64,000 nucleotides of DNA from Cladosporium sp. IMV 00045. Lineage: Eukaryota > Ascomycota > Dothideomycetes > Cladosporiales > Cladosporiaceae. A program made the position numbers and the translations under genes. The stretch covers positions 1-64,000 of the forward strand of contig MSJI02000915.1 in NCBI GenBank assembly GCA_001931905.2, in the 5' to 3' direction. Shown in pieces: positions 37,976 through 43,220 of this stretch. The first letter of the stretch is position 1. Every line of letters starts with the position of its first letter. The notes under the pieces are model-generated. The model did not search any database, was not told the origin of the DNA, and saw nothing but the letters and a program-made list of their open reading frames with translations.

Positions 37976-38439
37976 GATGGGCGGAGGTGTTTGGGGAAGT
38001 GGATAGATGATGAATGTATTGCTTTTGACGCTCTTGCTGCTCAGCTGGTCTGGATATCGATCAATCTTATCGCTTAGGCCTGTCTCGACATTCACATGTC
38101 AACGACTGCTGGCACGTGCATTGACGGAAGGCGGTCCCGTGCTCCCGCGCGCTCACAACGACAATAACATCAAGCCCCGCTGCCTCCTACACTCTTTCCT
38201 TCTCTCTTCGCGGCCGCCGAGCGGTCCAGACAGTGCCGCCATCTGTTGACAACACGACCGGGCGGCCGCCGCGCCTCCACTGAGCCTGCGCTCTACTTAC
38301 CACAATTTTTTTCCCTGTTTGTTTCGCTCTCTGGGGACTGCGGTCGCCATTACCTATCCTACAACAAACACCAACAATCATCTCCGCTGCGCAGCACCCC
38401 GCGAAGCGTGCATACTAAAACCAACTCACCTGACCGTAA
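37976..38439. other. Intergenic
   Basis: 3' flank of DPP4, then a GC-rich stretch (38205-38285). From ~38361 comes the first copy of a short direct repeat that recurs at ~38519. No gene seen. Confidence 0.35.
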
Positions 38440-38546
38440 GGTCACTCTATTTGCCGTGCTCTTGCTGAGCCTGACTTTCCACTGAAAACGAACCCTTGCA
38501 AGACTCGGTTGCCGCTGTACAGCAAACACCAACATCATCTCCGCTG
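38361..38546 (+). repeat. Pair of short direct repeats
   Basis: ACAACAAACACCAACA.TCATCTCCGCTG (38361-38388) recurs almost unchanged at 38519-38546 (one base shorter, one substitution). The copies are ~158 bp apart and the second runs directly into the hairpin at 38546. Confidence 0.6.
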
Positions 38547-38582
38547 TGAGTCGAGGGCGCTGCGACAGCGCCCTCGACTCAC
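38546..38582. repeat. Perfect inverted repeat, 17-bp arms, 3-nt loop
   Basis: The arms GTGAGTCGAGGGCGCTG (38546-38562) and CAGCGCCCTCGACTCAC (38566-38582) are exact reverse complements around CGA. The left arm begins with the splice-donor-like GTGAGT, and TAG follows at 38594-38596, so 38546-38596 could be a 51-nt intron made mostly of a hairpin. Confidence 0.85.
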
Positions 38583-38814
38583 TCACACCAACATAGTCGA
38601 GAACCTGCGGCGCATCATCGGCAAGTGGCAAGCAGAGAAGCGCCACGCGGACGAGTGCATTGCATGGTCGCGTGCCATCAGGTTCATTGGAGACCGGGAC
38701 GAGATCATCTACGTCCGCTACATCGGCACTTCCAACACCGTGTCCGCGTGGTCTCGCCACACCACAGATGGCACCCGGCGTCATGGTGGCCTCTACGGTC
38801 ACTTTCGCGAAGCA

Positions 38815-40575
38815 ATGGAAGAGATCTGTCCTGATTCCATCACGAGTTGTACAACTCACGAATTCTCAAAGGCAGCCGCGGAAGGGTTCAACGACGTGGA
38901 TGGCAATTCGTTCAATTTGGACTTAGCCCACACTGATATCAGGGAGCAAGCCCTCATCGCGTTGTTTGGCCAAAGTGTTCTACTCAATCGACAGGCTGGT
39001 GGTGTTGGTGTGTCCTACCAGCCTGACGAGCAAGACGTGGACCATTTCAAGAGGCTCAATACCCACATTTTCAGCAGACTCTTACTCGCAGACAGCTACG
39101 CAGAGCCTAGCGAGGAGACCAAGGGGCTTGTGGCCGACTGGATGCATGAAGTCTGTGTTCTCGGCAAATCCCATCCCAAAGAGCTGGGGACTGACAAGGT
39201 CCCGGTGACGAACAACATGCAGAATGCCTGGACAGAGCAAGCAATCCCATGCACATTCCATGGCAGAGTCCTCGCCTTGATCATTGGCGACTTTTGCCCA
39301 ACCAACGCGATGTACAATCCCGCTCCATATTGGAGTCAACCAAACCGGAGCGTGAAGTACTTGAAGGATACGTTTGCTCGGCTTCACGCATACGAGGACG
39401 GCAGAACGCACATGGACACCGCGAGCGTAAGCTCTATCACCGAGAAAGCTGTCTTTCCATGGATCAATTACCAGTATACACCGAAGCGGGAGGAATTTCG
39501 CCATGATAGTGCCGACCTCATGCGCAAGTACCTGGCTGTCATCCAACCCCTTGTCGTGTTTTCCTTTGAGAGGCGTACATCTGGAGTCCTTCGCGCTGAC
39601 TTTGCGGGTGTGTGGAGCAAGCACGACTTCCATCCAGACGTGGGTGTCCCTGAGATACACTACTATTCCCATCGTGGAGAGATTTTCGGTGCTGGTACCC
39701 GGCTGAAACTTGCTGAGATCCCTGTTGAAGATGAGGACTGCTATATCCAACTTCCTAGCATTCATCCTGGTGCAGACAAATACGACCATGGCTCACCAGC
39801 ACAGCGACGGGTATTCGAGATGACGCTGTGGCAATTTGCACTCTTGCTCGACTGCGCACTAGATGCTCTGGACGCATGCGCTCTCCAAAACGACGTCATT
39901 ATCTCCCGATCACATGTATGCCAGGCTATCCTCTCTTCGTTCCAGAAGCGCTGGCATGAAAGCGGCAATTCACGTGAATTTGATGCCGCCAAGATGTCAC
40001 TTGCTGAGTGGTACCAAGCCAAACCGGGAAGATACAGCAGTGACCCGAAGCGTAGCTGGAAGCCGAACGTCAATGGGAACAGTGTTGCAGTCAACCAGAG
40101 CGGCATTGTCACGATATACTGGACTAATCCCAAGGGCGAGAACATCAAAGCAACCATTGCTGGCGGCAGAGGAACGGACGTCAGTCCCCCGAAAGGGGCC
40201 AAAGAGCCCGAATCGATTCGCACCATCCATTTCATGCCTACTGGAATCGACATCAGGGATTCGGCAGGTGTGTCCAGAACCTACAGGCGTTTCAAGCGTA
40301 CAACGACAAATCCAACGTTCCCTGGTGACGTCCTCCGTGCGAAGATGGATGAGAACGGTGTTGCTGAGATGATCAAGCTGTGGGAATACGAAACAGGCCT
40401 CGAGTTCGATGCTGCATTCCCTGAGGACTCACCTATTACGGGTTCAGCTTGCCAAGCGTGTGCGGCGATTCGATACACCTGCGGAAATGACCGTCCGTGT
40501 GAGCGTTGTGTGAGGATGGGTCTGGAATGCAAGCCCCAAACTTTGAAGAAAAGGTCCTTCGACGAACTTACGTAG
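38815..40575 (+). CDS. Unrecognised protein with C-terminal Zn2Cys6 cluster
   Basis: From the first ATG (38815) the frame gives 586 aa. It is open upstream to 38440 without any ATG, and that extension reads convincingly as protein (NIVENLRRIIGKWQAEKR..., DEIIYVRYIGTSN..., GGLYGHFREA), so the true N terminus is uncertain: a distant 5' exon, a lost start, or non-AUG initiation. The YVRYIG segment resembles a GIY-YIG core, tentatively. The middle ~450 residues match nothing I know. Residues 546-572 form a full CX2CX6CX5CX2CX6C cluster (CQACAAIRYTC...CERCVRMGLEC), a fungal binuclear zinc DNA-binding motif that normally sits at the N terminus. Intronless, flanked by a hairpin and a tandem array. 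Function unknown. Confidence 0.7.
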   Translation: MEEICPDSITSCTTHEFSKAAAEGFNDVDGNSFNLDLAHTDIREQALIALFGQSVLLNRQAGGVGVSYQPDEQDVDHFKRLNTHIFSRLLLADSYAEPSEETKGLVADWMHEVCVLGKSHPKELGTDKVPVTNNMQNAWTEQAIPCTFHGRVLALIIGDFCPTNAMYNPAPYWSQPNRSVKYLKDTFARLHAYEDGRTHMDTASVSSITEKAVFPWINYQYTPKREEFRHDSADLMRKYLAVIQPLVVFSFERRTSGVLRADFAGVWSKHDFHPDVGVPEIHYYSHRGEIFGAGTRLKLAEIPVEDEDCYIQLPSIHPGADKYDHGSPAQRRVFEMTLWQFALLLDCALDALDACALQNDVIISRSHVCQAILSSFQKRWHESGNSREFDAAKMSLAEWYQAKPGRYSSDPKRSWKPNVNGNSVAVNQSGIVTIYWTNPKGENIKATIAGGRGTDVSPPKGAKEPESIRTIHFMPTGIDIRDSAGVSRTYRRFKRTTTNPTFPGDVLRAKMDENGVAEMIKLWEYETGLEFDAAFPEDSPITGSACQACAAIRYTCGNDRPCERCVRMGLECKPQTLKKRSFDELT

Positions 40576-40609
40576 CTTATGATGAATTCATGTATCTTAA
40601 TGACAAACG

Positions 40610-41265
40610 GCTTTTTCGATGTATTGAAGTTGACGGTACTTGTACAATGATTCCGGAGAAAATTCGTGACACTGACAGCCTCTTTCAGCGGTAATATGCT
40701 GTTCTGATGTGATGGCGCTGATGGTACTTGTACAAGGACTTCGGAGAAGCTCTGCCACACCGACAGCCTTTCTCGGCGGCAATGTGCTATTTGAATGTGA
40801 TGGAGCTGATGGTACCTGCACGTATGTCACGGAGATTTTCCGGATATTGAGAGATCCCTCCGTTGCATTATTGCCTTTTTGGAGTATCGAAGCTGACGGT
40901 ACCTGCGCACATGTTACAGAGATAGTACAGGTTTTCAAAGGACTTCCCGATCGTATGGATGCATCTCAAGAGTGTTGGATCCAATGGTACTTGCATATAT
41001 ACCACGGAGATATAGCAGGACATAAAAGGAGCTCTCGATGACACGATAGCGTTTTGAAAGTATTAAAGCTGATGATACCTACAGAGGTGCTATCGAGATG
41101 CATCGGATCGTTGGCGGTATCCCCAAGGACATTCAGAGTCTGGATAATACCACCGTTGATAGAACGAACTTGCACGCATCACAAGGGAAGGCTTTGGATC
41201 TCTAGAACGAGTTTCAACAGGAAAGACTGCATTTTGCCAGTGCTATGATTGATGGTAGTTGCATG
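40610..41265. repeat. Decayed tandem array, ~88-bp units
   Basis: A core like GCTGATGGTACYTGYAC recurs at about 40635, 40723, 40811, 40898, 40986 and 41074 (spacing 87-88 bp), with weaker copies near 41165 and 41254. The units diverge by substitutions and small indels. Since 88 is not a multiple of 3, the similar peptides on the minus strand (VQVPSAPSH-type) appear in shifting frames, which argues against coding. Confidence 0.75.
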
Positions 41266-41522
41266 GGGTTTTAGAGGGGCCGCGGACCTTACAATCATGT
41301 CGTGATGGAAACATGATACTGCCGGAATTGGTAGTTCTTGCAAAAATGTGAAACTTTAGCTTAACGTGTCACTGTTGTACAAGTGGTGTCAAGTCGCAGG
41401 AGCCTGGTATGAAGTGAAGTTCTGCAATAATTGCTTCGGTAGTTTGTTCATTACATCGTGATTGTATTATATAGTAACCTAACGTCTGTTCCTCTCCCAC
41501 ACCCGCTCATCGATCTCTAAGT
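41266..41522. other. Flank between the array and Hsp20
   Basis: 3' flank of the Hsp20 gene. One more weak unit-like piece (GGTAGTTCTTGC) is at 41330. Nothing else seen. Confidence 0.3.
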
Positions 41523-42458
41523 CTACTCGATATCCACCTTCTTAATCTCTACGAACTCCCCGTTCAACTTTGGCACAACAACCCTCAGCACACCATCCTC
41601 CAACTTCGCCGTAATCCCCTCGACATCAACCTGCGCCGGGTTCGCCCTGCTGCCCAGCCTGACCTTCCTCTCAAACGCGCCAACCTTCCTCTCATCCAGC
41701 GCCAGCGTCTTCAAGAACTCCTCATCGCCCGGCCGGTAGATCACGCCCGCAACGCTGAGCTCGGACTTATCTGCTTCCCAGTTCACGCCGACGTCCTCTT
41801 TCTTCGCTCCCGGGAGGGAGATGTGGATGACGTATGAGTCGTCCGTGTCGAAAACGTCCGCTTCGGGTTTGAAGTCTCTGGGGTTGGTGGCGGTGGGGTC
41901 TTTGCCTTCGCCATTACCGCCGAACAGACTCTCTTTCAGCATATCTTCCAGCCCGCCCATGAAGTGCGATGCTGCGCCGGGGTAGGCTCCAAGGCCGAAT
42001 GGCGGTCCGCCCATGCTGCCGAATGGACCGCGCCAGCCTCCTCGTCCGCCGCGTCCGCCGCAGCGACCGTGGCGGCCTCGACCGCGGTGTGGGGGTGGAC
42101 CATGGCCATGGTGGTGCGAGTGGTGTCCTTCTCCGAACGGTGGCGGTGGGCCGCGAGGTTCAGATGGACCAGCCTCTGTGTCTTCAGTCGGGGTGGAGAT
42201 GGGTGGGTCTTGCGCTTCGGTATCTGGTGCGGCTTCATTGTTGGGAGCAGCTTGTCCTTGACCATGATGGGCGTTGGCACTTTCGAAAGGCCAAGGATTC
42301 CAAGCAGTGGCCCATGGGTGTTCGTTCGATTCGTTTGCATTGTTGCTATTGTTATGGCGGGCGCCGCGGCCGGTGAAACCAGGAAAGCCCTGGCCTTCAA
42401 ACTCGGCGACCATGTCCCAGAATGGCGCGGTCTGATTGTAGTAACGTACTGATGGCAT
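41523..42458 (-). CDS. Small heat-shock protein, Hsp20/alpha-crystallin family
   Basis: Single exon, 311 aa, long for an Hsp20. Residues ~1-195 are an extended N-terminal arm: an aromatic start (RYYNQTAPFWDMVAEFEGQG), an Asn/Gln-rich stretch, then a His/Gly/Arg-rich segment (GEGHHSHHHGHGPPPHRGRG). Residues ~198-311 are the alpha-crystallin domain (DVFDTDDSYVIHISLPGAKK ... ITAKLEDGVLRVVVPKL), with an inserted loop of ~25 residues between strands. The C-terminal IxI-like motif is VEIKKVDIE. ATP-independent holdase chaperone expected. CTATATAG lies 66-73 bp upstream of the ATG. Confidence 0.9.
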   Translation of the reverse strand: MPSVRYYNQTAPFWDMVAEFEGQGFPGFTGRGARHNNSNNANESNEHPWATAWNPWPFESANAHHGQGQAAPNNEAAPDTEAQDPPISTPTEDTEAGPSEPRGPPPPFGEGHHSHHHGHGPPPHRGRGRHGRCGGRGGRGGWRGPFGSMGGPPFGLGAYPGAASHFMGGLEDMLKESLFGGNGEGKDPTATNPRDFKPEADVFDTDDSYVIHISLPGAKKEDVGVNWEADKSELSVAGVIYRPGDEEFLKTLALDERKVGAFERKVRLGSRANPAQVDVEGITAKLEDGVLRVVVPKLNGEFVEIKKVDIE

Positions 42459-42523
42459 GATTGTGAATGTGATAGATGAATGATGATGAGATAAAATAGA
42501 AGAGATAGCGAGTTGATCGAAGA

Positions 42524-42531
42524 CTATATAG
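42524..42531 (-). promoter_or_regulatory. TATA box of the Hsp20 gene
   Basis: CTATATAG, palindromic, 66-73 bp upstream of the ATG at 42458. No clear heat-shock element array was found beside it. Confidence 0.4.
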
Positions 42532-42632
42532 ACGCGTAGGAGGTACCTCGGTACGTACCACGTGTAGGCAGAACTGGCATACGCAACGCTTGGTCAGCCA
42601 TCCAAAGTCACAAACCGTAAAGAAAGAAGCAT

Positions 42633-42827
42633 CTTGAAGCATGTAGAAGATCGCAGGCAGCCACATTACGGAAGTCCAGTATAGCTCCGGGGAGTGGCAA
42701 AAGAAGTGAGGCCGCAACCATCGTGAAGCACACAGAACATCGCAGGCAGTCACTTTCTGCGACGTCCACTATAGCTCGGGAAGTCCAGCATAGCTCCGAG
42801 GTGTGGCTGAGGTGTGGCAAAAAGTGA
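42633..42827. repeat. Two diverged direct copies, ~90 bp
   Basis: GAAGCATGTAGAAGATCGCA... (from ~42636) and GAAGCACACAGAACATCGCA... (from ~42725) continue alike through GGCAG(C/T)CAC and (A)AGTCCAGTATAGCTCCG. The second copy has an extra internal duplication of the CCA(C/G)(T/C)ATAGCTC piece. The T-run that ends the tRNA transcript lies in the second copy. Confidence 0.65.
42819..42823 (-). terminator. Pol III terminator of the tRNA-Arg gene
   Basis: TTTTT on the minus strand, about 28 nt past the tRNA 3' end (42852). First run of five T downstream. Confidence 0.5.
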
Positions 42828-42851
42828 ATACTCAAGAGTGAGGTCTGAAAT

Positions 42852-43000
42852 TGACCGTCATGGGACTCGAACCCACAGCCTTCAGTGACCTTCGTGCCCG
42901 GATGGGCTACCGAAAACTGACGCCTAACACAGGATGTTAGTTTTAGTTCATCAGATATGGAGATCAGGTGTGACTTACGCTACCATTGCGCCAAACGGCC
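42852..43000 (-). tRNA. tRNA-Arg(TCG) with two apparent introns
   Basis: Read on the minus strand: acceptor 5' strand GGCCGTT (43000-42994), A box TGGCGCAATGG, D arm to GC at 42979; then a 55-nt insert 42978-42924 (GTAAGT...AACTAAC...GTTAG). After it GCG (42923-42921), anticodon stem TCAGT, loop TT-TCG-G (42915-42910), a 22-nt intron 42909-42888, then C, ACTGA, variable AGGCT, T arm GTGGG-TTCGAGT-CCCAT, acceptor GACGGTC and discriminator A (42852). Removing both inserts gives a regular 72-nt cloverleaf; the D stem GCGC/GCGC forms only if the 55-nt insert is removed. The 22-nt intron has a GCCC/GGGC hairpin and a CGAA that pairs with the anticodon region, as expected for a tRNA-endonuclease intron at 37/38. 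Both internal promoter boxes are intact. Confidence 0.8.
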
Positions 43001-43220
43001 GCTGTTTGATGATGCAATCGGAATTGTAACAATTTATTGATAGCTACAATCAGCTGCGTGAATCTTGTGCCCCACCTGGGCTCGCTCTCCGCAGCCTACA
43101 GCATCTTTGCGCCTCTCCCACCCGTCCGATCGATGCGTTCGAATCCCACGGAGTTCGTCCTTGCATTTCTCAATCTTTCGAGCTATACAGAACATCAATA
43201 GCATCAATCTTGATCGAAAT

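Follow-up and report, generated by a model that had tools for sequence, protein, structure and literature searches.

A tRNA-Arg(TCG) gene with two interruptions

The window, by which we mean the whole 64,000-nt stretch of Cladosporium sp. DNA analysed, carries a tRNA-Arg(TCG) gene on its minus strand at 42852..43000. ARAGORN on the joined flanks and the Rfam tRNA model identify a gene whose exons total 72 nt and are separated by two apparent introns. The 22-nt 5' exon (42979..43000), delimited by its sequence and by alignment with a related gene on contig C903, holds the 5' strand of the acceptor stem, the 5' strand of the D stem, the D loop and the first half of the D-stem 3' strand, and the general consensus places the A box within it at 42983-42993. 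It is followed by a 55-nt GT-AG intron-like insert in the D arm (42924..42978), which is missing from the C903 copy. Motif tests located a GTAAGT donor at 42973..42978 and a branch-site-like ACTAAC at 42936..42941, 12 nt ahead of the 3' end of the insert, and the sequence closes with a TAG acceptor at 42924..42926. The 14-nt middle exon (42910..42923, from the C903 alignment) supplies the second half of the D-stem 3' strand, the 5' strand of the anticodon stem, the anticodon TCG and an internal TTTT. Next comes a canonical tRNA intron of 22 nt at position 37/38 (42888..42909), called by ARAGORN and fitting a bulge-helix-bulge (BHB) in our BHB test (outer helix 4/4, central helix 4/4). The 36-nt 3' exon (42852..42887, from the sequence and the C903 alignment) carries the B box at 42863-42873, and a T5 run resembling a Pol III terminator lies 28 nt past the gene at 42819..42823. 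An HSP20-like gene (41523..42458; Pfam HSP20, 2.3e-11, plus an open reading frame), whose start codon at ~42458 was picked by eye, follows on the same strand, ~390 nt downstream.

The first-pass annotation had described a spliceosomal-looking 55-nt insert at 42924..42978 in the D arm of this gene. That description is supported, and the coordinates and the GTAAGT, ACTAAC and TAG motifs were confirmed; the annotation had, however, left the 22-nt intron at 37/38 unnamed. Exact removal also restored the D stem as claimed. When 42924-42978 was left out, ARAGORN reported Arg(tcg), every arm being paired and a 22-nt intron placed at 37/38, and 21/21 stem pairs formed. When the insert was kept and introns were allowed, ARAGORN instead returned Ser(cga), now with one anticodon-stem mismatch and a 73-nt intron placed at 31/32. 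A tRNA-Ser is expected to have a long variable arm, and because the Ser(cga) reading lacks one, the Arg(tcg) reading was preferred. Scans of the whole window found no tRNA, either with ARAGORN in its bacterial setting or with Rfam at the gathering threshold. Searched alone with laxer filters, the unspliced sequence 42852-43000 scored 30.4 bits against the Rfam tRNA model (cut-off 29), compared with 51.3 bits for the uninterrupted C903 copy. The canonical nuclear 37/38 intron is thus present in the interrupted gene too, and the 55-nt insert differs from it in position, length and signals, lying in the D stem and not at 37/38, the canonical position for eukaryotic tRNA introns.

The uninterrupted copy and the state of the interrupted gene

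The assembly is a draft of 49.87 Mb in 954 contigs. A genome search with a D-arm pattern, allowing up to 3 mismatches, gave 21 matches and its reversed control 3; one exact match proved to be an uninterrupted tRNA-Arg(TCG) gene on C903. Judged from the alignment, this gene is a natural empty site for the insert. A TCG-plus-B-box pattern gave 37 matches (15 in the reversed control), judged by eye on printed strings; only the interrupted gene and the C903 gene had this anticodon arm, and the pattern would pass over any TCG gene whose B box differs. The pattern searches therefore delivered another intact copy of the tRNA, a case that the first-pass annotation had envisaged.

Both flanks of the locus aligned with C903 in reverse orientation. 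C903 58001-65783 was 90.6% alike to window 51348-43548, C903 69502-78000 was 89.5% alike to window 38036-29541, and the HSP20-like segment between the two flank blocks was 84.8% alike. A comparison of window 41443-43000 with C903 66438-68860 showed both the tRNA and the HSP20-like gene strand-flipped relative to the flanks, with their order unchanged, and 3.4 kb of the window (38036-41443) corresponded to 0.6 kb in C903. The strand flip of the tRNA and its HSP20-like neighbour makes exact orthology uncertain. We take the two loci as putatively homoeologous with a local rearrangement, and they may also be older paralogues. The contigs of the assembly fall into two sets about 90% alike, resembling the subgenomes of Hortaea werneckii, for which 89% between subgenomes is reported (PMC5952469). 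The ITS also seems to resemble that of H. werneckii, but in a protein comparison the best match bearing an organism name, among the 120 listed of 660, was Vermiconidia calcicola at 61%, behind matches at 97, 85, 84, 66 and 64%. Gain of the intron in one TCG copy would be simpler than loss in the other. Elsewhere in the assembly, an rDNA/5.8S copy on C220 (L073) differed from one on C517 (L072) by many changes of the C-to-T/G-to-A type, scored by eye, as if it had undergone repeat-induced point mutation.

We then compared the two TCG genes with each other. Their exons aligned without gaps and differed at 7/72 sites (9.7%), all in the acceptor or T stem; five of these sites lie in the acceptor, enough to assign reads to one gene or the other. 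In sequential numbering, pairs 3-69, 6-66 and 49-63 had changed on both sides and pair 5-67 on one side only, and all 21 pairs were intact in both genes. Seven random substitutions left all pairs in 4,992 or 5,269 of 400,000 trials (1.2-1.3%), a count that does not require double changes. The pattern points to probable selection on the stems during the history of the TCG pair, undatable relative to the insertion, and the stem changes may be older than the insert. The TCG pair diverges about as much as the flanks; the Phe and Arg(CCG) pairs are identical. Either an old paralogy or relaxed constraint could account for the exon divergence of the TCG pair. Other Arg tRNAs show acceptor drift as well: one Arg(TCT) copy (L001) differs from three others (L002-L004) in its acceptor stem with pairing kept.

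The surroundings of the gene were compared with those of other tRNA genes. A or T occupied 15/20 upstream bases, within a range of 7-17 across 59 distinct tRNA upstreams, and a TCAA motif was found upstream in 26/59 distinct tRNA surroundings, both TCG genes among them. Both upstream features, like the T5 run, fell inside the range of these 59 surroundings, a set in which upstreams identical over the first 50 bases were collapsed, shortened ones were dropped, and ARAGORN calls, some doubtful, were used unfiltered. Damage to stems, promoter boxes or terminator, as expected of a tRNA pseudogene, was not seen at this gene, with its 21/21 pairs, both boxes and T5 run in place. A TTTT run crosses the anticodon loop in both tRNA-Arg(TCG) genes (window 42910-42923; L036), a possible weak intragenic Pol III terminator.

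Two genes called Gly(ccc) by ARAGORN, L080 on C175 and L084 on C753, make better sense on manual reading as Arg(CCG) genes that have a 37/38 intron, and the genome has at least seven Arg(ACG) genes. Given the second TCG gene, these two hand-read Arg(CCG) genes and at least seven Arg(ACG) genes, loss of the interrupted gene would be tolerable. The same Arg(CCG) and Arg(ACG) genes led us to drop an argument that the gene is essential as the sole reader of CGG.

Splice signals, junction pairing and possible origin of the insert

The boundary of the insert can be drawn in two ways one base apart (GT-AG or TA-GG) and is otherwise pinned by the tRNA fold. The combination of GTAAGT, CTAAC 8-30 nt from the end and a final AG occurred in 0/400,000 Markov-model 55-mers. 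The same strict pattern occurred in 1/127,888 window 55-mers on both strands, and since the insert passes this test, the single 55-mer is the insert itself. A looser consensus (GTRNGT, YTRAY) was found in 7/400,000 model 55-mers and 5/127,888 window 55-mers. All these chance figures are to be doubled for the one-base slide, and they come from a test designed after the insert had been seen, with words taken from the fungal consensus (PMC5832005). That consensus is described as an RCTRAY branch and a YAG acceptor, with the branch 6-36 nt from the acceptor (PMC5832005), and the insert agrees with it, having ACTAAC and 12 nt between CTAAC and its end. Its GTAAGT...TAG ends are those of a U2-type GT-AG intron with a GTRWGT-like donor, and it is precisely absent from the homologous C903 gene, as seen in the ungapped exons. 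By its anatomy, we regard the 55-nt insert as an intron with high confidence.

A GTRNGT..CTAAC..YAG module was counted 14 times in the window plus C903. Replacing the branch by two alternative words gave counts of 7 and 9, and five Markov sets gave 1-6 each, which makes for a modest general enrichment. Within the insert, CTAACAT and GTGTTAG can form a 7-bp hairpin between the CTAAC and the 3' end, and this could hide the branch and acceptor. Folding was no better than that of shuffled sequences for the insert (z -0.73) or for the precursor (z -0.95).

The bulge-helix-bulge fold that the first-pass annotation had named as a sign of tRNA endonuclease was found only in part. At the GT-AG cut, the insert showed an outer helix of 1/4, a central helix of 4/4 (one A-U and three G-U) and an inner helix of 3/4; at the cut slid by one, the values were outer 0/4, central 1/4 and inner 2. 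A strict BHB, with an outer helix, 3-nt bulges and a 4-bp central helix at both junctions, was absent at the insert. Under a relaxed BHB (central plus one flanking helix), the insert had its four weak central pairs and 3/4 inner pairs, and the controls varied. These controls were 14 other introns at 37/38, each taken at the best of five shifts and with a misread Ser(cga) row left out; the outer helix was 4/4 in 9 of them and the central helix ranged from 1 to 4. The outer plus central count of the real insert was reached by 808/20,000 shuffled inserts, a result that leans a little toward pairing at the junctions. Many ectopic nucleomorph tRNA introns are reported without a defined BHB (PMC3978253), so a missing BHB does not in itself decide against the endonuclease route. 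The yeast tRNA endonuclease subunit Sen54 is reported in contact with the D arm (PMC4090602), which suggests that a D-arm insert would have to leave first.

GT-AG stretches were also seen in other small RNA genes of this genome. A U6 gene on the minus strand of C83 (L069, ~1501-1640) has a 59-nt intron-like stretch before the ACAGAGA region, of the form GTAAGT...GCTAAC...CAG and with the same 12-nt branch-to-end spacing as the tRNA insert. With 47 of 2535 candidates scored, this gene was the only U6 over the cut-off. Its alignment to the Rfam model begins only past the first 31 positions, and we take the part upstream of the 59-nt stretch to be the U6 start. Two U3 genes, L089 (C850) and L090 (C248), inspected among five over the cut-off, have the same 59-nt stretch, GTGAGT...CTAAC...CAG, immediately ahead of the Rfam match, and the sequence before it is presumably the first exon of U3. 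Aligned locally, the tRNA insert and the U6 intron matched best over the donor alone.

Such introns have known counterparts. Fission yeast U6, a Pol III RNA, is reported to carry a spliced mRNA-type intron (PMC10484740). The U6 introns of fission yeast and other fungi are like the insert in being short, with GT-AG ends and a branch of the CTAAC type, and in interrupting a small, structured RNA made by Pol III; U6, however, is a spliceosome component, whereas the interrupted host here is a tRNA. The idea that U6 introns arose by reverse splicing near catalytic nucleotides (PMC10484740) leaves a tRNA target unexplained. Introns of fungal U3 snoRNA are likewise of spliceosomal type in a structured RNA, and eight genomes are reported to have one U3 copy with an intron and one without (PMC5832005). 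Unlike the interrupted gene, U3 is not a tRNA and involves no second splicing system.

Fungal introner-like elements are described as a source of new spliceosomal introns in Dothideomycetes and other groups (PMC4457414), and an introner-like insertion had been suggested for this locus. Near-identical copies would be expected of such elements, yet none was found in the genome with 20-nt and 171-nt queries, nor was there a target-site repeat beyond 1 base at the insert. The first 20 nt of the insert gave 5 matches at up to 3 mismatches, itself included (1 in the reversed control), and by eye the other four do not extend as copies. The 171-nt query found only itself, in an insensitive search that also missed the C903 tRNA. 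The suggestion thus gained no backing, and a diverged introner origin is possible.

Other D-arm inserts were sought with the pattern TGGYNYARTGGN{1,7}GTRDGT, which prescribes some of the A-box bases and so is not a full survey; it gave 7 genome matches (13 in the reversed control), and the six other loci had no ARAGORN tRNA. In the tRNA family search, 63 of 1428 candidates were scored. A relic of a second tRNA copy was sought beside both genes; the one alignment below the cut, at ~43068-43113, was rejected, as 6/200 shuffles were as good, among 30 comparisons. The prokaryote genomes searched gave no matches, and a single match on a viral contig was set aside as an ordinary phage-type tRNA-Thr.

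Alternative explanations and implications

We think it probable, though far from certain, that the insert is a U2-type GT-AG spliceosomal intron splitting the D stem of a tRNA-Arg(TCG) gene that is itself probably functional and transcribed by Pol III. Its internal A and B boxes would drive this transcription; the earlier suggestion that the gene is now made by Pol II is not needed, with both boxes, the upstream element and the T5 run in place. The spliceosome would excise the 55-nt intron and so rebuild the D stem and the tRNA core. Only afterwards would tRNA endonuclease take out the 37/38 intron, and tRNA ligase would then join the halves at 37/38. We infer transcription, splicing, the order of steps and the function of the product alike from the sequence. 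That the insert is spliced in vivo to give a usable tRNA, matured by the spliceosome and then by the unrelated tRNA endonuclease, is a proposal we make tentatively and with slightly more doubt than belief.

The interrupted gene may instead be a dying copy, as had also been raised earlier, in which a spliceosomal intron or chance DNA sits in a redundant gene, no tRNA is made, and the stems are intact since the insertion is recent. In its favour, there is a second, uninterrupted TCG gene, the isoacceptors Arg(CCG) and Arg(ACG) overlap in decoding, and eukaryotic insertions in the D or T arm, mostly in one of many synonymous genes, are described as supposed pseudogenes (PMC4090602). Against it, all 21/21 pairs, both promoter boxes and the T5 run survive, and a full splice consensus would be unexpected if the insert were random DNA. 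We consider a dying copy unlikely. The splice signals could also belong to a Pol II transcript, a long RNA or the 5' UTR of the HSP20-like gene, running through a passive tRNA. That gene does lie ~390 nt downstream on the same strand, but only the insert is missing from the C903 copy, and the ends of the insert coincide with the D-stem junction. Moreover, relative to the direction in which the tRNA is transcribed, the HSP20-like segment of C903 has the reverse placement, so the tRNA-HSP20 linkage is not conserved. A Pol II transcript of this kind seems very improbable to us.

A non-canonical intron removed by tRNA endonuclease, of the Cyanidioschyzon or archaeal type and with GT-AG ends by chance, has precedents in its D-arm position (PMC9602550, PMC4090602), and many ectopic nucleomorph introns are described without a defined BHB (PMC3978253). 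Like the insert, the ectopic introns of Cyanidioschyzon merolae and of nucleomorphs include a D-arm site, as well as a 37/38 intron in one gene. The four weak central pairs, the inner 3/4 and the 808/20,000 shuffles matching the outer plus central count lean the same way. The outer helix is only 1/4 at the GT-AG cut and 0/4 at the slid cut, however, and the full splice consensus would be left unexplained. The introns of C. merolae tRNA-Ile(UAU) are reported with hBHBh' motifs (PMC9602550), whereas the insert lacks the strict motif and has the GT-AG consensus; the ectopic introns of nucleomorphs often have no defined BHB (PMC3978253). We rate an endonuclease intron as highly doubtful. An assembly or sequencing artefact is conceivable in a draft of 954 contigs, but a 55-nt error carrying a splice consensus exactly at the junction would be improbable, and we give this explanation almost no weight.

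By textbook account, tRNA introns are not spliceosomal, and the two splicing routes are treated as separate worlds. In the part of the open-licence PubMed Central literature consulted, we saw no tRNA gene described as carrying a spliceosomal intron. If the insert is indeed a spliceosomal intron in a working tRNA gene, the making of one tRNA would depend on the spliceosome, and spliceosomal introns would be extended from U6 and U3 to tRNA. A tRNA gene needing both systems would test the action of the spliceosome on a Pol III tRNA precursor, and it would show intron gain beyond Pol II and U6/U3 transcripts. The pair of loci would then offer a natural intron/no-intron comparison within one genome.
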